The position numbers were made by a program, and so were the translations under genes. The notes beneath the pieces were generated by a model, which did not search any database, was not told where the DNA came from, and worked only from the letters and a program-made list of their open reading frames with translations. Source: Deltaproteobacteria bacterium RBG_13_61_14 (GTDB taxonomy: Bacteria > RBG-13-61-14). From it: a DNA stretch of 13,761 nt. The stretch is taken from NCBI GenBank assembly GCA_001797815.1, contig MGQK01000033.1, positions 45,830 through 59,590 of the forward strand. Direction: 5' to 3'. Positions 5,611 through 13,761 of this stretch are shown here, piece after piece. The stretch's first letter is position 1, and each line of letters starts with the position of its first letter.

Positions 5611-6249
5611 ATGGTTCCTTCACCGAACAGTTCCCGGCTGGACTACCGGATTATCACCGAACTGATCCAGAAGGGTTCGCGGGTTTTGGATTTGGGCTGC
5701 GGCAACGGAGAGCTCCTGGCCATGCTGGTGGAAGAGAAAGCGGCGATTGGCCAGGGGGTGGAGATCTCGGAGGAAGGCATCAATGCCTGCATTGCCCAGG
5801 GCCTGAACGTGATCCAGGGCGACCTCGACGAAGGTCTGGCCGATTACGCGGATCACTCCTTTGATTACGTGGTCCTTAACCAGACCCTGCAAGTGGTGCA
5901 CAAGCCGGACCTGGTGCTCCAGGAAATGATCCGCGTCGGGAAACAAGGGATCGTGGGGTTCCCCAACTTCGCCCATTGGGCGGTGCGCGGCCAGCTCTTT
6001 TTTAAAGGGATGATGCCCCGAACCCCGGAGCTGCCCTTTGAGTGGTTCAACACACCCAACATCCACCTCCTCACCATCCAAGACTTCGAGCGCTTTTGCC
6101 GCGGACAGGACATCCAGATCAACCGCAAGATCTATATCAAGGGCCAAGAGAGCGTGAGCGCGAACTTCCTGCCCAACCTGCTCGCCCAGACCGCGATTTA
6201 CGTGATCAGTCAAGTTCATCGAGCCAGGGGGGAAGCGGCGGATGAGTGA
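5611..6249 (+). CDS. metW: MetW, methionine biosynthesis methyltransferase-like protein
   Basis: A 212-residue class I SAM-methyltransferase-fold protein. MetW normally partners with the homoserine O-acyltransferase MetX. The SAM-binding motif is VLDLGCGNGELL (25-36), followed by GQGVEIS (47-53) and the family-specific tracts VLNQTLQVVHKPD (88-100), GFPNFAHW (116-123) and PFEWFNTPNIHLLT (142-155). Length and sequence fit the MetW family over its whole extent. AAGGAG (5594-5599) lies 11 bases before the ATG, slightly long. No metX is present in the window. Instead the stop codon overlaps the start of a predicted RNA thiolase gene (ATG at 6242, 8-bp overlap), implying translational coupling with sulfur-transfer genes. 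The exact biochemical activity of MetW is poorly defined in general. Confidence 0.92.
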   Translation: MVPSPNSSRLDYRIITELIQKGSRVLDLGCGNGELLAMLVEEKAAIGQGVEISEEGINACIAQGLNVIQGDLDEGLADYADHSFDYVVLNQTLQVVHKPDLVLQEMIRVGKQGIVGFPNFAHWAVRGQLFFKGMMPRTPELPFEWFNTPNIHLLTIQDFERFCRGQDIQINRKIYIKGQESVSANFLPNLLAQTAIYVISQVHRARGEAADE

Positions 6250-7246
6250 ACCCATCCGGGCCGTGGCCCTGCTCTCCGGCGGGCTCGACAGCACGCTGGC
6301 GATCCGGGTGGTGCAGGAGCAGGGCATTGCAGTGGTCGCGATCAACTTCTCCACCGCCTTCTGCACCTGCACGCCCAAGGGCCAGGGCTGCTCGTCCAGC
6401 CGGCGGGCCGCGGACCAACTCGGGGTGGAGTTGGTGGTGCAAGTTCTCACCGATGAATACTACGCGCTGCTTAAGGACCCGCCCCACGGCTTTGGCCGGG
6501 CCCTGAACCCCTGCATTGACTGCCGCATCCTCAAGCTGAAGAAATCAGCGAAGGTGATGCGCGAGCGGAGCGCCTCCTTCCTCATCACCGGCGAGGTGCT
6601 GGGCCAGCGGCCCATGAGCCAGCGCCGCGACGCGCTCCGGATCATTGACCGCGACTCCGGTCTCGAGGGCCTGATCCTGCGGCCGCTCTCGGCCCAGCAT
6701 CTGCCGCCGACGGTGCCGGAGCGGGAGGGCTGGGTGGACCGGGGAAAGCTGCTCGCCATCTCCGGCCGCAGCCGCAAGGTCCAGATGGAGCTGGCCGAGC
6801 ATTTCGGGATCCATGACTATCCCTGCCCCGCGGGCGGCTGCCTGCTCACCGAGCCGGAGTTCGCCCGCAAGCTCAAGGACCTGATGACCTGGAAGCCGGA
6901 CTTTACCACCCATGACCTCAACCTGCTCAAGGTCGGGCGCCATTTCCGGCTCCCGGCCGGCAGCCGGCTTTTGGTCGGCAAGAACGAGCGCGAGAACCAG
7001 CGGCTGCACGCGCTCGCGCGGGAGAGCGATATCCTGCTCGACACCGAAGGCGTGCCCGGGCCGCTGGCCTTGCTCCAGAACGGCGGCGGCGAAGAGGATC
7101 TGCGCCTGGCCGCGGCGATCATGGCCCGCTACGTGAAGGCGGCCGGGCCGATCCGGTTTCGGGTGAGCCGGGGCCCGGAGGGTCAGGGCCGGGAGCTGCT
7201 GGCCGAGGCGCTGGCCCCGGAAGCAGTGGACCGCTATCGCATTTGA
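6242..7246 (+). CDS. PP-loop ThiI-like RNA thiolase with predicted NFACT-R2-type C-terminal domain
   Basis: Predicted ATP-dependent tRNA sulfurtransferase of 334 residues, related to ThiI/MnmA-type enzymes. The PP-loop SGGLDS is at 12-17. Residues 1 to about 180 form the adenylation domain. About 185-330 (PCPAGGCLLTEP, then THDLNLLKVGRHFRLP and LLVGKNERENQRL) resembles the NFACT-R2 RNA-binding domain that I recall being fused to such thiolases. Cysteines cluster in suggestive groups: Cys41/43/50, Cys91/94 (NPCIDCR) and Cys195/200 (PCPAGGC). They could hold an Fe-S cluster or carry sulfur. There is no N-terminal THUMP and no rhodanese domain, so it is not classical ThiI. Its ATG overlaps metW, and a cysteine desulfurase follows. 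4-thiouridine at tRNA position 8 is the likeliest product, but another thiolated base is possible. Confidence 0.82.
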   Translation: MSEPIRAVALLSGGLDSTLAIRVVQEQGIAVVAINFSTAFCTCTPKGQGCSSSRRAADQLGVELVVQVLTDEYYALLKDPPHGFGRALNPCIDCRILKLKKSAKVMRERSASFLITGEVLGQRPMSQRRDALRIIDRDSGLEGLILRPLSAQHLPPTVPEREGWVDRGKLLAISGRSRKVQMELAEHFGIHDYPCPAGGCLLTEPEFARKLKDLMTWKPDFTTHDLNLLKVGRHFRLPAGSRLLVGKNERENQRLHALARESDILLDTEGVPGPLALLQNGGGEEDLRLAAAIMARYVKAAGPIRFRVSRGPEGQGRELLAEALAPEAVDRYRI

Positions 7247-7253
7247 GAGAATT

Positions 7254-7260
7254 AAAGGAG
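7254..7260 (+). promoter_or_regulatory. Displaced Shine-Dalgarno sequence of the cysteine desulfurase gene
   Basis: AAAGGAG, a strong ribosome binding site, ends 52 bases before the probable ATG at 7313. The interval is filled by two tandem palindromic repeats (7261-7309). Removing exactly those bases would leave AAAGGAG-GAG-ATG. No comparable Shine-Dalgarno sequence lies directly before 7313. Confidence 0.5.
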
Positions 7261-7283
7261 CACAGGTTTTAAACCTGTGGCAC
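7261..7283 (+). repeat. Copy B of the 23-bp palindromic repeat
   Basis: CACAGGTTT-T-AAACCTGTG is a perfect 9-bp inverted repeat around one base, followed by GCAC. It is the cleanest of the three copies in the window and directly follows the AAAGGAG at 7254-7260. Confidence 0.8.
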
Positions 7284-7286
7284 GCG

Positions 7287-7309
7287 CACAGGTCTTAAGT
7301 CTGTGGCAC
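7287..7309 (+). repeat. Copy C of the 23-bp palindromic repeat
   Basis: CACAGGTCTTAAGTCTGTG followed by GCAC. This is a diverged tandem copy starting 26 bases after copy B, with a 3-base gap between them. The outer CACAG/CTGTG arms are intact, with inner pairs partly G·U. Confidence 0.75.
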
Positions 7310-7312
7310 GAG

Positions 7313-8506
7313 ATGGATCGCATCTACCTGGACCACAACGCCACCACCCCGGCTGCCGCGGAGGTGATCGAGGCGGTGAGCCGCGGCCTGGCCGAGGAGA
7401 TCGGCAACCCTTCCAGCCTCCACTATTTCGGCCAGCGGGCCAAGCGCCGGCTGGAGGAGGCCCGGGAGGAAGTGGCGGGGCTGATCGGGGCCGAGGCCAA
7501 GGAGATCATTTTCCTGAGCGGGGGCACCGAGGCCAACAACCTCGCGATCAAAGGGGTGGCCGAGGCGAATGCCAAGCAGGGCCGGCACCTGGTGACGAGC
7601 GCGGTCGAGCACCATGCGGTCTTGCATAGCTTCGCGGCCCTGGAGAAACGCGGTTTCGAGGTGACCCGCCTGCCGGTGGACGAGTATGGCCGGGCGAGCG
7701 TGGAAGCGCTGGAGCCGGTGCTCCGGCCCGGCACCGTCCTGGTCTCGGTGATGCTGGCCAACAACGAGGTGGGCACGCTTCAGCCGGTGGCGGAGATGGC
7801 CGCGCTCTGCCGCGAGCGGGGCGTGCTCTTCCACACCGACGCGGTGCAGGCGGTGGGCAAGGTCCCGGTGGACGTGGAGAAACTGGGGGTGGACCTGCTC
7901 TCGCTTTCCGGGCACAAGTTTTACGGGCCCCGGGGCGTGGGCGCGCTTTACGTGCGCAAGGGCGTGCCCTATCTTCCGCAGATGCACGGCGGCCACCAGG
8001 AGCGGAACCGCCGCGCCGGCACGGAGGACCTGCCCGGGATAGTGGGGATGGGAGTCGCCGCCCGACTGGCGCGCCAACACCTGCCGGAATGGGCGGCCCA
8101 CACGCAGAGGCTGCGGGAGCTTTTGCAAACGGGAATCGAGGAGCGGATGGTGGACGTGAAGATTTTCGGCCATCCGCAATACCGTCTGCCCAACACGCTC
8201 TGCGCCGCTTTTGGCGGCACCGAGGGCGAAAGCCTGCTCATGAACCTCGACCTGAAAGGGGTGGCGGTCTCCACCGGCTCGGCCTGCTCCTCCGGCGCCA
8301 TCGAGCCCTCCCACGTGCTCCAGGCCATGCGCGTGCCGGCCGAATACCTCCGCGCCGCGCTCCGCTTCTCCCTGGGCAAGGACAACACCGAGGAGCAGAT
8401 CGCCCGCGTCCTCGAACTCCTTGGCGACATCATCCCCCGCGTGCGCTCGCTCGCGCCGGGTCATCGAGAGGCCTCAGGCGTCAGACCTCAGGCCCCGGGC
8501 AAGTGA
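7313..8506 (+). CDS. nifS: Cysteine desulfurase, NifS/IscS family
   Basis: PLP enzyme of 397 residues that removes sulfur from cysteine as a protein persulfide. It opens with the family N-terminus YLDHNATTP (5-13). His100 lies in EHHAV, Asp176 and Gln179 in HTDAVQAVGK, the PLP lysine is Lys202 in SLSGHKFYGPRG, and the persulfide cysteine is Cys325 in STGSACSSG, followed by EPSHVLQAM, which is closer to NifS than to IscS. ATG 7313 is chosen because residues begin in register with the family; a GTG at 7277 would start inside a repeat. The last ten residues or so are encoded by a low-complexity stretch with CCTCAGGC twice and look like an accreted tail. It sits between the ThiI-like thiolase and the E1-like enzyme and is the probable sulfur donor for both. 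Confidence 0.93.
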   Translation: MDRIYLDHNATTPAAAEVIEAVSRGLAEEIGNPSSLHYFGQRAKRRLEEAREEVAGLIGAEAKEIIFLSGGTEANNLAIKGVAEANAKQGRHLVTSAVEHHAVLHSFAALEKRGFEVTRLPVDEYGRASVEALEPVLRPGTVLVSVMLANNEVGTLQPVAEMAALCRERGVLFHTDAVQAVGKVPVDVEKLGVDLLSLSGHKFYGPRGVGALYVRKGVPYLPQMHGGHQERNRRAGTEDLPGIVGMGVAARLARQHLPEWAAHTQRLRELLQTGIEERMVDVKIFGHPQYRLPNTLCAAFGGTEGESLLMNLDLKGVAVSTGSACSSGAIEPSHVLQAMRVPAEYLRAALRFSLGKDNTEEQIARVLELLGDIIPRVRSLAPGHREASGVRPQAPGK

Positions 8507-8564
8507 GCGCGACCGAACGGGATGGAACTGTAAAGTCAGAAGTGTGAACCGTGAACTAATCACC

Positions 8565-9590
8565 ATGGACAACCTCTCCCGCTACACCCGCCAGATATTC
8601 TTCGCCGAGATCGGCGAGTTCGGCCAGCAGCGGCTTCGGCAGAGCCGGGTCGCCGTGGTGGGTCTGGGCGCGCTCGGGAGCATGATCTGCCAGTTGCTGG
8701 TCCGGGCGGGGGTCGGCCGCCTCACTTTGGTGGACCGCGATTTTGTCGAGCTCCACAACCTCCAACGCCAGACCCTCTACGATGAAGAGGACGTGATGGG
8801 CCGGCTGCCCAAGGCGCTGGCGGCTTCCAAGAAACTTAAGCTCATCAACGGTGAAGTGGAAGTGCAGGTTGCGGTTGACGACCTCAATCCGAAAAATGCC
8901 GCCAAGCTCTTGGCCGAAGCGGATCTCGTGCTCGACGGCTCGGACAACATGGAAACGCGGTTCCTGGTCAACGACTTTTGCGTGCGCGAAGGCAAGCCCT
9001 GGATCTACGGAGGCGTGATCGGGTCGGTGGGCATGACGCTCGACATCGTGCCGGGAAAAACACCCTGCCTTCGCTGTCTCTTCCCGGACCTGCCCGGGCC
9101 CGGCGAGCTGCCCACCTGCGACACCGTGGGCATCCTCAATTCCCTGCCCGCGGTGATCGGCGCGATTGAAGTGACCGAGGCGATCAAGCTCCTGGTCGGG
9201 AGCGAGGACTGGCGCCGCGATCTGCTCTACCTGGACCTGTGGAAGAACCAGGTCAAGAACCTCCAGGTCGCGGCGGTGACCGAGTGCGAATGCTGCGGTA
9301 AGCGGCAGTTCCGTTACCTGGAGAGCAAAGCCACGGCCTGGGTGACCACGCTCTGCGGCCGCAACACGGTCCAGATCAGCCCGGCTGAAGAGCGCGCGCT
9401 CGACCTCGCCCAGCTTTCCGCCAGTCTGGCCGGCCACGGCCAGGTGGAAAACCGGGGCTATCTCTTAAGCTTCCAACCCCGCGAGCACGAGCAGGAACTG
9501 GTGATCTTCCCCACCGGCCGCGTCCTGGTCCAGGGCACCAGCGAAGAGTCCCTCGCCCGTAACCTTTATGCCAAGTACCTGGGAGGGTAA
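8565..9590 (+). CDS. ThiF/MoeB-type E1-like adenylyltransferase with C-terminal extension
   Basis: Enzyme of 341 residues predicted to adenylate the C-terminus of a ubiquitin-like sulfur carrier (ThiS/MoaD type) for thiamine, molybdopterin or another thio-cofactor. It begins SRYTRQIFFAEIGEFGQQRL. The nucleotide motif is VVGLGALGS (31-39), Asp57 and Arg68 lie in LVDRDFVELHNLQRQ, and Asp126 in LDGSDN. Zinc is likely bound by Cys168/Cys171 (CLRC) and Cys241/Cys244 (CECC). The conserved cysteine is Cys185 in LPTCDTVGIL. About 90 further residues (252-341, from LCGRNTVQIS onward) form the extension seen in many bacterial MoeB/ThiF proteins. The polypeptide ends in KYLGG. The ATG at 8565 matches the family N-terminus, with no clear ribosome binding site. 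No sulfur-carrier gene is visible nearby, so the partner is unknown. Confidence 0.9.
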   Translation: MDNLSRYTRQIFFAEIGEFGQQRLRQSRVAVVGLGALGSMICQLLVRAGVGRLTLVDRDFVELHNLQRQTLYDEEDVMGRLPKALAASKKLKLINGEVEVQVAVDDLNPKNAAKLLAEADLVLDGSDNMETRFLVNDFCVREGKPWIYGGVIGSVGMTLDIVPGKTPCLRCLFPDLPGPGELPTCDTVGILNSLPAVIGAIEVTEAIKLLVGSEDWRRDLLYLDLWKNQVKNLQVAAVTECECCGKRQFRYLESKATAWVTTLCGRNTVQISPAEERALDLAQLSASLAGHGQVENRGYLLSFQPREHEQELVIFPTGRVLVQGTSEESLARNLYAKYLGG

Positions 9591-9793: not shown

Positions 9794-10918
9794 ATGAGTG
9801 AGTGGCCTCAAATTCGGCGGTGGATTATCGGGGTAGTTTTTCTCGCAAATTGTTCACTTCTCTTTAATTGCCAGCCGATCAAGAAGCTTCTGGTCAAGCC
9901 GGCGCCGGAGGGCTTGATGGAAACCGCTTACACCGTCCGGCTCCGAGGCTACGTGCAGACGGTGACGGTGAAAGCGGATCCGGCCGCGGTCCGGGCTTAT
10001 ATCTCCAATCCGGCCAACGTCGCGATTCCGGGGCTGAAGTTTGAAGGAGCCGAACGCTCGCCGGCAGAAAACCTGATTCCGACTACCGGCCAGACGTCTC
10101 CCTTTGTGGTCCGGGCCGTGGGGATCAATATCCAAGGCCGGATCCTGGTCGTCCGGTCGGACGAGGAAAAGTTGTGGCTCCTGCTGGAAAGCCCTTTCGG
10201 ATTCCACATCCAGCGGTGGCAGTTTAAACCCGTCAAGGACGGGACCCAGCTCACCTTCCAGATGGAATACGAGCTTCAGGAAAAGGGGATCAAGGGACAA
10301 CTGGGAAAAATCACCGAGTTGGTCGGTCTCGGCGAAGCCCTGGAAAAAGGGATGGACCGGATGCTGGCGGAAGTCCAGGTCCATTTTGATCCTTCCCTGG
10401 AGGCGGATCAGTTGGTGGCCCTGGGAGTGCGGGGAGAAGGTTATGAGGCTTTCCTGCAAGTGTATGAAACGAACGTCGGCATCAGCGCTCCGCCCGACCG
10501 GGTGGAAGCTTGGGCCAACAACTCGGAGAATGCGCGCATGTTGATGGAGCAATTCCAAATGGAAAACCAATATTTTTCCCAATTTTTGGAATTGGGTCCG
10601 GGGCAGATACTTTATGCGCCGGCGGTTCTGGCGACCAAAGGCCTAAAGTCCAAGGCCGAGCTTTTTATCTTTCGGGATCCTGATCCGGAAAGTCATGGCT
10701 GGAAGATTTTCGCCCTGAGCTACGGGATCGGAGAAATGATAGAGATCCAGATCGAAGCAGGCCCAGGAGGCAGCCTGCTCACATTCAAGATAAAGTCCGA
10801 AATTCCGACCGCCCTTTCTTCTGAACAGGTGGACCTGATGATGCACTTGTTGGGTATTCCGCAAATGCTCCGGGATCGGGCCTTGCGGATTAAAAACGGG
10901 GTGGAACAGATCGGTTAA
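9794..10918 (+). CDS. Putative lipoprotein with two START/SRPBCC-like domains (paralogue 1)
   Basis: No named family recognised; 374 residues. The N-terminus (MSEWPQIRRW, then a hydrophobic run) is a signal peptide ending in LLFNC-QPIKK; Cys26 is the likely lipidated residue, although Asn at -1 is not canonical (Cys20 is an alternative). Two similar halves follow. The first begins YTVRLRGYVQTVTVKADP (46-63) with AVRAYISNPAN, and the second begins GVRGEGYEAFLQ (211-222) with VGISAPPDRVEAWANNSEN. The pattern 'beta strand, APxxxV, helix, dPeN' is typical of START/SRPBCC helix-grip folds, which often hold hydrophobic ligands. Segments are shared with the genes at 11936 and 13181. GGGGAG (9779-9784) lies 9 bases before the ATG. 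It is the first gene after the control region. Ligand and function are unknown. Confidence 0.75.
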   Translation: MSEWPQIRRWIIGVVFLANCSLLFNCQPIKKLLVKPAPEGLMETAYTVRLRGYVQTVTVKADPAAVRAYISNPANVAIPGLKFEGAERSPAENLIPTTGQTSPFVVRAVGINIQGRILVVRSDEEKLWLLLESPFGFHIQRWQFKPVKDGTQLTFQMEYELQEKGIKGQLGKITELVGLGEALEKGMDRMLAEVQVHFDPSLEADQLVALGVRGEGYEAFLQVYETNVGISAPPDRVEAWANNSENARMLMEQFQMENQYFSQFLELGPGQILYAPAVLATKGLKSKAELFIFRDPDPESHGWKIFALSYGIGEMIEIQIEAGPGGSLLTFKIKSEIPTALSSEQVDLMMHLLGIPQMLRDRALRIKNGVEQIG

Positions 10919-10943
10919 GGTCAGAAGGAGAAAGAACTTGATC

Positions 10944-11849
10944 ATGAAACGACTCCTACTCCGCGGGTTGATGGTGGGGCTGAGTATTCTCTCCTCACCC
11001 CTTTGGGCGGCCGAGCCGATCCTGGTGCTTTCTTCCTCGGATCCCGAGAACCAGGCGGTGGCCGCGGGTTTCAAGCATTACTTCACCGGGAGCATTCGCG
11101 AGATCAACCTGGAAGGAAGCGATGCCCAGCAGCGGATCGTGGGCGAGCAGCTCAAAGGCGCTCCCCCGTCCCTGGCGGTGGTGGTGGGTGACCTTGCCGC
11201 CCAAATGGCCCAGTGGTATCTGCCGGGAGTTCCCCTGGTTTATTGCGGGGTGTCCCGGGCGGCCAAATTCTCGTTCAACAATCCTCAGGTCATCGGTATC
11301 TATCACGAGCCGAACCCCCTGGAACAGCTCAAATTGGTCCCTGGTCTCTTCGCCGGGAAGACTCGGGTCGCCATGTTTTACAGCCCGGAAAATGTGCAGA
11401 TTAACCAGAAGGAATTAACCCAGAAGGCAGGAGAGCTGGGCATTACCCTGAACTTTGTTACGTTGGGATCCATCAAAGAAGTGCCGGCGAAACTCCGAAA
11501 CACCCTGCCCCAGACCGATCTCTTGTGGGTGTTTACCGATCCGGTGATCCTGAGCAGCCACAGCATTCAATACCTGGTGTTGGAGGCGGTGTCCGCCGGA
11601 GTCCCGATCTATTGCGGCGACAGTAGTCTGGGCCGACGGGGCGCGACCGCCGCTTTCATCCCTGACGGGGAGGACGCCGGCAAACTGGCGGCCAAGGCCG
11701 CCACGGACTTGATCCATGGGACCCGCCGCTCCAAACAAGAAATCGTCTACCCCAAAGGCAAGCTGATCTTGAACCAGAAAATCGCCGGCCTCTTGAAGGT
11801 TTCTTTTCCTGCTTCCTTGCTCAGCCAGGCGCAGGAACTGATTCAATAG
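10944..11849 (+). CDS. Periplasmic ABC-type substrate-binding protein (PF04392-like)
   Basis: Predicted 301-residue exported binding protein. The signal peptide is MKRLLLRGLMVGLSILSSPLWAA, with likely cleavage before EPILVLSSSD. The body has two alpha/beta lobes; VAMFYSPENVQINQKELTQ (142-160) resembles the inter-lobe region of uncharacterised ABC binding proteins. The C-terminus KLILNQKIAGLLKVSFPASL (273-292) matches the 'NlktAkaLGl.iP.sLl' ending characteristic of PF04392. Some relatives bind aromatic amino acids; the ligand here is unknown. No permease or ATPase gene is present. AGAAGGAG (10923-10930) is 13 bases from the ATG at 10944 but only 7 from an in-frame TTG at 10938, so the start may be two codons earlier. 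It is sandwiched between two START-like lipoprotein genes and begins 25 bp after the first, indicating co-transcription. Confidence 0.82.
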   Translation: MKRLLLRGLMVGLSILSSPLWAAEPILVLSSSDPENQAVAAGFKHYFTGSIREINLEGSDAQQRIVGEQLKGAPPSLAVVVGDLAAQMAQWYLPGVPLVYCGVSRAAKFSFNNPQVIGIYHEPNPLEQLKLVPGLFAGKTRVAMFYSPENVQINQKELTQKAGELGITLNFVTLGSIKEVPAKLRNTLPQTDLLWVFTDPVILSSHSIQYLVLEAVSAGVPIYCGDSSLGRRGATAAFIPDGEDAGKLAAKAATDLIHGTRRSKQEIVYPKGKLILNQKIAGLLKVSFPASLLSQAQELIQ

Positions 11850-11870
11850 CGCCCGGCTTCCTGCCGGCGC
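11849..11870 (+). other. Intercistronic hairpin
   Basis: GCGCC plus GGC (11849-11857, one bulged C) pairs with GCCGGCGC (11863-11870) around TTCCT, directly at the stop codon of the binding-protein gene. No T-tract follows closely, so it is unlikely to end transcription fully. It could protect mRNA ends or lower expression of the downstream gene. Confidence 0.4.
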
Positions 11871-11935
11871 ATGCTGGAGTTTGGGGAGAGGCGGAACGAG
11901 AATCGAAATTTTTTTCTCACGAGAGGAGCTTTAAC

Positions 11936-13078
11936 ATTCTCCGGATCGGTTGCAGATACCTTTCCTGGGTCCTGGTTTTAGCCGTTTTCCTCGGTGGCCT
12001 CGGATGCCAAAAGCTCAAATTGGCGTTCCGCAAGCCGGCCGCCCCCGGGGTGCTCCACCAGTCTTATCCCATCCATGCTTATTCCTATCAATCGTCCTTG
12101 GTGTTTTATACCACTCCTCAGGAATTGATGAAAAATTTTGTCCAAGACCTGTCCTGGCTGGAGAGGATTTCCGGCCCGATGAAGATAGAGCTAAAGCAGT
12201 TCCAGCCGCAGACCGATCTGACCCAGGCCGGCCAATTCGTGGATTTCAATATCAAAATCCTGGGAATTAATTTCTCCTGTCGCGTGATCTGTCTCAAATA
12301 TAAACCGGATCAGGAATTGTGGTGGATGATCGTTCCCCCGGGAGATTCCTGGATCTTGTTGCACTATGAGATGAAGCCGATCCCCGAAGGGTGCAAATTG
12401 AACCTGAGCTTCCTGGGCGGCCAGCCCCCGAAATATCTGGAAGCTATTGTGGACATTCGCCAATTGGCCAAGGCCGTGGTGGCCCGGGTGGATTTGTGCC
12501 TGGCCCTGATCCAAGCCGAATTTGATTCGGCCCTGGACGTGGAACAAGTCACCGCCCATGGTCTGCGCGGAGAACTCTATGAAACTTTTCTGCAAGGCAA
12601 TGACTCCTCGATCCGGGTGAATGCTCCGCCGTCAAAAGTCGTCCAATGGATCTTCTCCGACCCCGAGAACCTCAATTTTTTGATTCCGAATTTGCGTCTT
12701 AAAGGCCCCTGTTTTGACGATCCCCAAATTCTCTTCGCCCATCCGGAAGAATTAATCGCCTGCCCCTCCACCTACCATCTCGGCGCCATGGAGATGAAGG
12801 CCATGGTTTTGACCAAAGGCGGCTGGGAAGATGAAAATAAGATGACCTCCTATCACCACAATGTCTGGGTCTTGGCCCTGGATCACTTGGTCCGGGTCCA
12901 GATCCTCATCACCGGGCAAGGATCCGGCAGTGAGGTGAAAATGGTGTTTGCCTCCGATCTTTCCGAGTCTGCGGCCGCGGAAGCCATTGACTTTATCATC
13001 GCCATCGCCGGCATTACCGAGCGCTGCGAACAGGCCCTGCTCAAGATCAAAGCCGGGGTTGAAGGGCCAGGAGTTTGA
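11936..13078 (+). CDS. Putative lipoprotein with two START/SRPBCC-like domains (paralogue 2), probable ATT start
   Basis: Related to the protein at 9794; 380 residues from the proposed start. The frame has no ATG, GTG or TTG between the preceding gene's stop and base 12020, yet it encodes a good lipoprotein signal, LRIGCRYLSW then VLVLAVFLGGLGC-QKLK, with lipidated Cys24. AGGAG (11924-11928) lies 7 bases before ATT at 11936, which gives a signal peptide of the same length as in paralogue 1. A TTG start at 12020 would begin after the lipobox and is rejected. Shared linker: EFDSALDVEQVTAHGLRGEL (195-214) against HFDPSLEADQLVALGVRGEG in paralogue 1. The second half has the strongest SRPBCC look: SSIRVNAPPSKVVQWIFSDPEN (224-245, core NAPPSKVVQW). 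Its ligand is unknown. The first domain has diverged most. Confidence 0.72.
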   Translation: MLRIGCRYLSWVLVLAVFLGGLGCQKLKLAFRKPAAPGVLHQSYPIHAYSYQSSLVFYTTPQELMKNFVQDLSWLERISGPMKIELKQFQPQTDLTQAGQFVDFNIKILGINFSCRVICLKYKPDQELWWMIVPPGDSWILLHYEMKPIPEGCKLNLSFLGGQPPKYLEAIVDIRQLAKAVVARVDLCLALIQAEFDSALDVEQVTAHGLRGELYETFLQGNDSSIRVNAPPSKVVQWIFSDPENLNFLIPNLRLKGPCFDDPQILFAHPEELIACPSTYHLGAMEMKAMVLTKGGWEDENKMTSYHHNVWVLALDHLVRVQILITGQGSGSEVKMVFASDLSESAAAEAIDFIIAIAGITERCEQALLKIKAGVEGPGV

Positions 13079-13180
13079 GCGGTCAAGTTACTCCTGGTCG
13101 AAAAATCCCGGGCCGGAACCGGAGCCGGCCAGGCGATGTCCCAGGAAGCGGGCGTGTAGCCCGGAAAGATGGTGTCAGTG
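13079..13180. other. Spacer between START-like paralogues 2 and 3, with a GC hairpin
   Basis: A short non-coding stretch. GGCCGG (13111-13116) and CCGGCC (13125-13130) can pair around an 8-base loop, with no T-tract after. GGAAAG at 13163-13168 is the only weak ribosome-binding candidate for the next gene. No promoter is evident, so co-transcription with the upstream genes is likely. Confidence 0.35.
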
Positions 13181-13761
13181 ATGAATAGAGCAAGCAGTCG
13201 AATTTTTTCGTTGGGTTTCCTTCCGGCCTTCGTCGCCGCTGGCCTAGTCAGTGCGTGGGCCGGCGCCGCTTCCCGCCCGCCGGCGCCGGAAGTGGCGCAG
13301 ACATCCTACACGCTCCGGCTGATGGGCTACGAACAGACCGTAACCATTCGAACCCCCCCGCCCGAGCTGTCCGCGTTTCTCAACGATCCCGTGAACGCTT
13401 CCTCCCTCTTTTCTTCGGCGCTGGATACCAAACCGGGCCAGGAAATTCCCCCGGATCAGCCTCCGCCCGGCTTGGGCGGGTGCCTGCCCGCGCCGGTGAA
13501 GCTGCTGGGGATGGAAATCCCCGGATGGCTGATCCTGGTCCGGGTGCAGGAGCACCGGTTGCTTTGGATTGTCTGGGACAACCCCTACCTGTTCCAGGTC
13601 CAGCGCTGGCAGTCCTGGCCGGTGGAAGAAGGGACCCGCCTCACTTTGAAGATTGACTCGGAAATTCCCCAGCAGGGATGGCTGGGCCGGGCGGTGAGGA
13701 TCTTCAACTTCGAGAGCCTCAGCCGGCGGGTTTTCAAAGGGGTGGACCTGATGCTGGCCCG
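13181..13761 (+). CDS. Exported START/SRPBCC-like protein (paralogue 3), 3' end outside window
   Basis: The frame is open from 13181 to the window end, giving 193 complete residues without a stop. The N-terminus MNRASSRIFSLGF and a hydrophobic run to SAWAGA-ASRP look like a Sec signal peptide with signal peptidase I cleavage; there is no lipobox cysteine. The body aligns along its whole length with the first half of the protein at 9794: YTLRLMGYEQTVTIRTPPPE against YTVRLRGYVQTVTVKADPAA, then AFLNDPVN, LGMEIPGWLILVRV, LFQVQRWQSWPVEEGTRLTL and VFKGVDLMLA. A second START-like domain is therefore expected beyond the window. ATG 13181 is chosen; an in-frame ATG at 13169 and GTG at 13178 are alternatives, and the ribosome binding site is weak. 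Function is unknown. Confidence 0.75.
   Translation, partial: MNRASSRIFSLGFLPAFVAAGLVSAWAGAASRPPAPEVAQTSYTLRLMGYEQTVTIRTPPPELSAFLNDPVNASSLFSSALDTKPGQEIPPDQPPPGLGGCLPAPVKLLGMEIPGWLILVRVQEHRLLWIVWDNPYLFQVQRWQSWPVEEGTRLTLKIDSEIPQQGWLGRAVRIFNFESLSRRVFKGVDLMLA

Follow-up and report, generated by a model that had tools for sequence, protein, structure and literature searches.

Pairing of exported tandem-SRPBCC proteins with PF04392-type binding proteins in Deltaproteobacteria bacterium RBG_13_61_14: a possible ligand-handling module of the envelope

The pairing of genes for exported tandem-SRPBCC proteins with genes for PF04392-type substrate-binding proteins is the key finding of this analysis and the strongest clue to the function of the family. 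The phylum is represented here by three genomes, the present one (G000), G001, and G002, in which one, four, and no PF04392 genes score above the cut-off, respectively, and all five of these genes directly adjoin a tandem-SRPBCC gene. The fold of the SRPBCC proteins is known; it is their architecture, export, expansion and, above all, their fixed pairing with a binding protein that together make the arrangement a novel one.

The gene run and its paralogues

The window, that is, the whole stretch of 13,761 nucleotides that was analysed, covers positions 45830–59590 of contig C33 in a genome of 4.7 Mb that is 95% complete. Its relevant features are listed below in window coordinates.

9794–10918, plus strand: P1, exported tandem-SRPBCC protein of 374 aa (PF10604 E 5e-10, over the cut-off; AlphaFold2 pLDDT 79.6)
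9869–9871, plus strand: candidate lipobox Cys26 of P1 (Cys column nearly invariant in the family; Asn at -1 atypical)
9914–10387, plus strand: predicted N-terminal SRPBCC domain of P1, residues 41–198 (AlphaFold2, beta-alpha-beta5-long helix; Z 15.0 to 7wa9; PF10604 over 55–193)
10436–10903, plus strand: predicted C-terminal SRPBCC domain of P1, residues 215–370 (AlphaFold2; Z 12.7 to 6cay over 221–371; hhalign of N versus C half 98%)
10944–11849, plus strand: periplasmic substrate-binding protein (PF04392, TrpX-like) with a Sec signal peptide (PF04392 E 4e-20; PDB 3lft E 2e-11)
11921–11928, plus strand: Shine-Dalgarno-like GAGAGGAG, 7 nt before the ATT at 11936 (sequence, start-codon scan)
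11936–13078, plus strand: P2, exported tandem-SRPBCC lipoprotein of 380 aa with a likely ATT start (AlphaFold2 pLDDT 79.8; homology to P1)
12005–12007, plus strand: Cys of the P2 lipobox GLGC (sequence)
12050–12523, plus strand: predicted N-terminal SRPBCC domain of P2, residues 39–196 (AlphaFold2; Z 16.2 to 7wa9)
12572–13063, plus strand: predicted C-terminal SRPBCC domain of P2, residues 213–376 (AlphaFold2 model and homology with P1)
13169–13761, plus strand: P3, exported tandem-SRPBCC protein truncated at the window end (28% to P1, E 1e-38; clade with P1 95/97)

P1, P2, and P3, the last of which starts at 13169 or 13181 and runs to the window end, are paralogous in BLASTP comparisons, with 28% over 342 aa for P1/P3 (E 1e-38), 24% over 382 aa for P1/P2 (E 9e-32), and 20% for P2/P3 (E 1e-11). 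The earlier note had described a run of three such genes; the paralogy stands, but the members number four and the run is interrupted. The fourth paralogue, P4, lies past the window end at L006:17135–18283, is 53% identical to P2, and has a start that overlaps the stop of P3, while the PF04392 gene at 10944–11849, which the earlier note had left out, splits P1 from P2. In the tree, P1 groups with P3 (95/97) and P2 with P4 (100/100), with the deeper branches unresolved; this grouping indicates that the P1–P2 pair was duplicated into P3–P4. The whole of P3 comprises 379 aa at L006:15999–17138 with two assembly gaps inside (runs of N, L006:16592–17036), and the window ends exactly at the first of them.

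The start-codon scan found no ATG, GTG, or TTG upstream of the P2 signal peptide; the best candidate is the ATT at 11936, which follows GAGAGGAG at a distance of 7 nt and could be a rare start codon or an assembly error. Scans of the DNA for promoters and terminators gave no more than chance, and no phage match was found. Upstream on the same strand, positions 5611–9590 of the window carry MetW, ThiI-like/NFACT-R, class V aminotransferase (cysteine desulfurase-like), and ThiF genes, a run that resembles a sulfur-transfer cluster.

Short motifs that had been read as common to the paralogues were largely borne out. The opening strand is shared by P1 (YTVRLRGYVQTVTV) and P3 (YTLRLMGYEQTVTI), but is kept only weakly in P2 (YPIHAYSYQSSLVF). 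The mid-protein linker said to be common to P1 (FDPSLEADQLVALGVRGEGYEAFLQ) and P2 (FDSALDVEQVTAHGLRGELYETFLQ) is present in both, with a G-x-RG core that hardly varies across an alignment of 10 family members. The element resembling 'APxxxV...dPeN', pointed out as a repeat, was located at the opening of both halves of the protein.

Fold, export, and distribution

AlphaFold models of P1 and P2, for which 11 aligned family members served as input (pLDDT about 80, pTM 0.75), each contain two consecutive predicted helix-grip domains with the pattern beta-alpha-alpha-beta5-alpha and a long C-terminal helix. The START/SRPBCC-like two-domain fold suggested earlier from sequence is supported for P1 and P2 by these models and by the structural searches, which brought up no fold other than helix-grip and no strong match to a family of another type. 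The best Foldseek matches in the PDB are di-domain SRPBCC proteins (StfQ, BexL, and DynU16), with StfQ (4xrt) at the top for both P1 (E 5e-8) and P2 (E 9e-7). Single SRPBCC/START/Bet v 1 domains align to P1 and P2 at Z 12–16. For instance, in VIA-align, the N half matches MSMEG_5634 (7wa9) with Z 15.0 and rmsd 2.7 over 140 residues in P1 and with Z 16.2 and rmsd 2.5 over 144 residues in P2, for which the PDB comparisons cover mostly the N half and the C half is modelled and assigned by homology; the C half of P1 matches the StART-like domain of Lam2 (6cay) with Z 12.7 and rmsd 3.3 over 147 residues. Compared half against half, the profiles of the N halves and the C halves are homologous (hhalign 98.0%, E 2e-13), so that the tandem protein is an internal duplication. 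Invariant residues are mainly Gly, Pro, the RG motif of the linker, and a Lys in the last helix, with few polar ones inside the domains.

No named family in Pfam or NCBIfam covers the two-domain protein, in keeping with the earlier failure to name one. NCBIfam has no model for it, and Pfam offers only the superfamily-wide PF10604 (Polyketide_cyc2, SRPBCC superfamily), whose curated cut-off is exceeded by the N half of P1, the N half of the relatives at L017 and L020, the C half of that at L016, and the L050 member; P2, the P3 fragment, and P4 have no Pfam match on their own. In likeness to the SRPBCC/START/StARkin superfamily, both halves are predicted to adopt the helix-grip fold and PF10604 is matched by P1 and several relatives, while the present proteins differ from it in having two domains per chain and a conserved RG linker and in being exported and mostly lipid-anchored.

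All complete family members begin with a signal-peptide-like stretch. Export, as claimed for the three paralogues, extends to all four; partial lipidation is supported by a candidate lipobox Cys in P1, P2, and P4 and by its absence from the signal peptide of P3, which is probably soluble. One alignment column holds this Cys in P1, P2, P4, and all complete members of G001, and none of the Cys-bearing members has Asp at +2, so that by the +2 rule the lipid-anchored ones are probably located in the outer membrane. Lipidation of P1 is less sure owing to the atypical Asn before its Cys. LolA is encoded as well. Exported SRPBCC proteins are a recurrent feature of this genome: four more, single-domain and with lipobox signal peptides, are encoded at L054 (G000:C125), L034, and L036–L038, three of them close together on C125.

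It is mainly from the cytoplasm that START-like domains are known, as carriers, enzymes, and receptors. The literature search on exported SRPBCC lipoproteins returned nothing relevant. The earlier view that a cluster of exported tandem helix-grip proteins is unusual is tempered by a precedent, the lipid-anchored BamC (PMC3359395).

Full-length relatives occur in two genomes only, both of this phylum, among 386 genomes, a sample by which absence elsewhere is not proven. Outside the phylum, profile searches of the same 386 genomes with A1 and A6 gave no more than weak single-domain matches in G375. The contig search found no relative with P1 alone and only AlinenSediments_bin-1115 with alignment A2. 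This MAG is G001, described as an uncultured delta proteobacterium, and its five loci of the family encode six full members and one partial member; a further, very divergent one is encoded at L050. G002 retains only an 84-aa remnant (L052:3207–3461), which extends no further than the signal peptide and first strand and is apparently what is left of a decayed copy.

The PF04392 partner and its gene neighbourhoods

The partner gene matches PF04392 with 72.6 bits against a cut-off of 25.9 (E 4e-20), while its score against the NCBIfam TrpX model, 55.7 bits, is far below the cut-off of 390. Its nearest structure is 3lft (E 2e-11), which we take to be the Trp-bound S. pneumoniae protein, 3lkv presumably being the Phe-bound V. 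cholerae protein. PF04392-type proteins are known to bind Trp in S. pneumoniae and Phe in V. cholerae (PMC10805632).

The arrangement of the pair recurs in G001. At L016, L017, and L019, the lipoprotein gene comes first, and no more than about 40 nt separate its stop from the start of the binding-protein gene; at L019, the two genes overlap. At L050, a single-lobe PF04392 protein (L050:10055–10669) precedes the divergent tandem-SRPBCC lipoprotein, which is 13–18% identical to the other members, yet the pairing is kept. No ABC permease or ATPase gene lies beside the five PF04392 genes; a sugar-type ABC operon with its own binding protein is found several genes away at L050. A further PF04392 match in G001 (C48), which with 20.7 bits misses the cut-off and falls within genes of RCC1-like repeats, was discarded as chance.

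The tandem-SRPBCC copies at L018 and L020 have no adjoining binding-protein gene. The former adjoins an HGD-D dehydratase gene. At the latter (L020:9636–11507), an SCP2 sterol-transfer gene comes after that of the tandem-SRPBCC lipoprotein, and beyond it lie genes for a hydrolase and an acyl-CoA dehydrogenase. Outside the phylum, the closest PF04392 relatives often sit beside TonB receptors, histidine kinases, MCP, or PF12974 binding protein genes, with HAMP-histidine kinases at L092, L096, and L101 and an MCP at L097.

Proposed role, rival explanations, and known systems

The cluster may be an envelope ligand-handling module for one or more hydrophobic or aromatic small molecules, a reading to which we give an even chance. 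Its basis lies in the homology, the predicted tandem fold, the export signals, the gene pairing, and the P1–P2 duplication shown above; gene adjacency alone does not prove joint action, and the L018 and L020 copies, which have no binding-protein neighbour, count against the reading. The soluble periplasmic PF04392 protein and the exported tandem-SRPBCC proteins would bind the same molecule or set of molecules, which the SRPBCC cavities would hold and which the binding protein would hand to, or take from, the lipoproteins, so that the module would act in taking up or moving the ligand and not in sensing it. The SCP2 and acyl-CoA dehydrogenase neighbours at L020 and the HGD-D dehydratase at L018 are circumstantial, and would fit acyl compounds of a hydrophobic or aromatic kind. 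The PF13243 cyclase is absent in the three genomes, with positive controls detected, so that the ligand is unlikely to be a hopanoid or sterol made by the cell itself; imported sterol-like compounds may serve.

The main rival is a sensing module, in which the binding protein and the START-like lipoproteins would detect a compound and relay this to a kinase or chemoreceptor whose gene lies elsewhere. It owes this rank to the signalling genes with which the nearest PF04392 relatives outside the phylum often sit, the HAMP-histidine kinases and the MCP; TonB receptors also occur beside these relatives. Rhodothermus, too, has single-domain PF04392-like proteins encoded close to MCP genes (PMC10805632), and the single-lobe protein at L050 is of this kind. 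Many of the structural matches are PYR/PYL hormone receptors, though a common fold shows no function. No kinase, MCP, or other signalling gene adjoins any of the pairs seen in the phylum, however, and four to eight tandem-SRPBCC paralogues per genome are more in line with binding or handling a number of compounds than with a single signal; we consider sensing unlikely here. Catalysis in the periplasm is less probable still: di-domain SRPBCC enzymes would perform cyclisation, hydrolysis, or a similar reaction like the di-domain aromatase/cyclases, and the top Foldseek matches of both models are indeed the ARO/CYC StfQ (for P1 also BexL) and DynU16. Few polar residues are kept inside the domains, however, the proteins are exported, and no polyketide genes lie nearby. 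StfQ and BexL share the tandem SRPBCC domains with the present family, but at about 10–12% identity, and they are polyketide enzymes by their PDB titles, whereas no neighbourhood that was read contains a polyketide synthase gene.

It is very improbable that the tandem helix-grip lipoproteins have a structural role and dock on an envelope machine with no small ligand, as BamC (NlpB, PF06804) might suggest. BamC, a lipoprotein of the outer membrane, has two helix-grip domains and is part of a protein machine; it has been reported from beta- and gamma-proteobacteria only, and in other lineages such places are filled by other lipoproteins, for instance BamF (PMC3359395). P1 and P2 resemble it in their two predicted helix-grip domains, and their own outer-membrane location is putative. 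The family does not match PF06804, to which the E. coli BamC control scores 372 bits, and the comparison of its A3 profile with E. coli BamC gave 0.5% in hhalign and below 0 bits in hmmsearch, so that BamC was rejected as a sequence relative; BamC is not among the PDB matches listed, which excludes nothing by itself. Unlike the present family, BamC is not paired with a binding protein, and this pairing together with the strong divergence of the paralogues argues for ligand diversity.

Closer in logic to ligand handling are the eukaryotic Lam/Ltc and GRAMD1/Aster proteins, which move sterol and of which Lam2 and Lam4 have two StARkin domains per chain. Their StARkin domains are likewise membrane-anchored and align singly at Z about 12–13, but these proteins are eukaryotic and transmembrane-anchored, and no sterol or hopanoid cyclase was detected in the present genomes. 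The mycobacterial CoxG, among the P2 structure matches (8uds, Z 13.2), reportedly carries menaquinone and would be another case in which an SRPBCC protein draws a lipid out of a membrane. A binding protein has also been recruited to carry lipid with a lipoprotein-family partner in the Bst system of Methylococcus (PMC10942540). The likeness to BstA, BstB, and BstC is that of a periplasmic binding protein working with such a partner on lipid, but BstB is a PF12974 protein, BstC is TatT-like, and BstA is an RND pump, whereas here PF04392 and SRPBCC proteins are combined with no RND gene in the cluster; of the sterol synthesis genes that would go with a BstB-type protein, the PF13243 cyclase is absent in the three genomes. 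Similarly, the partner gene resembles TrpX-type proteins in being a PF04392 member with 3lft as its nearest structure, but a TrpXYZ-type ABC importer includes permease and ATPase genes, which both the cluster and the surroundings of the G001 pairs lack.

Returning to the ligand-handling module, its extension to transport is tentative: soluble PF04392 proteins and lipid-anchored tandem StARkin proteins could jointly carry a compound of hydrophobic or aromatic nature through the periplasm, which we consider possible but somewhat doubtful; the cluster has no gene for an outer-membrane receptor or inner-membrane permease, so that a full transport route is missing. If true, this would be an undescribed envelope system, seen so far only in one little-known bacterial phylum, and a bacterial counterpart in logic of the eukaryotic membrane-anchored StARkin lipid carriers. 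A lineage that has expanded exported tandem START-like proteins to four to eight copies and keeps them beside a periplasmic binding protein offers a concrete, testable candidate for the passage of oily or aromatic molecules through the periplasm with no classic ABC importer involved, and PF04392 proteins, found here without ABC genes, gain a new type of partner.
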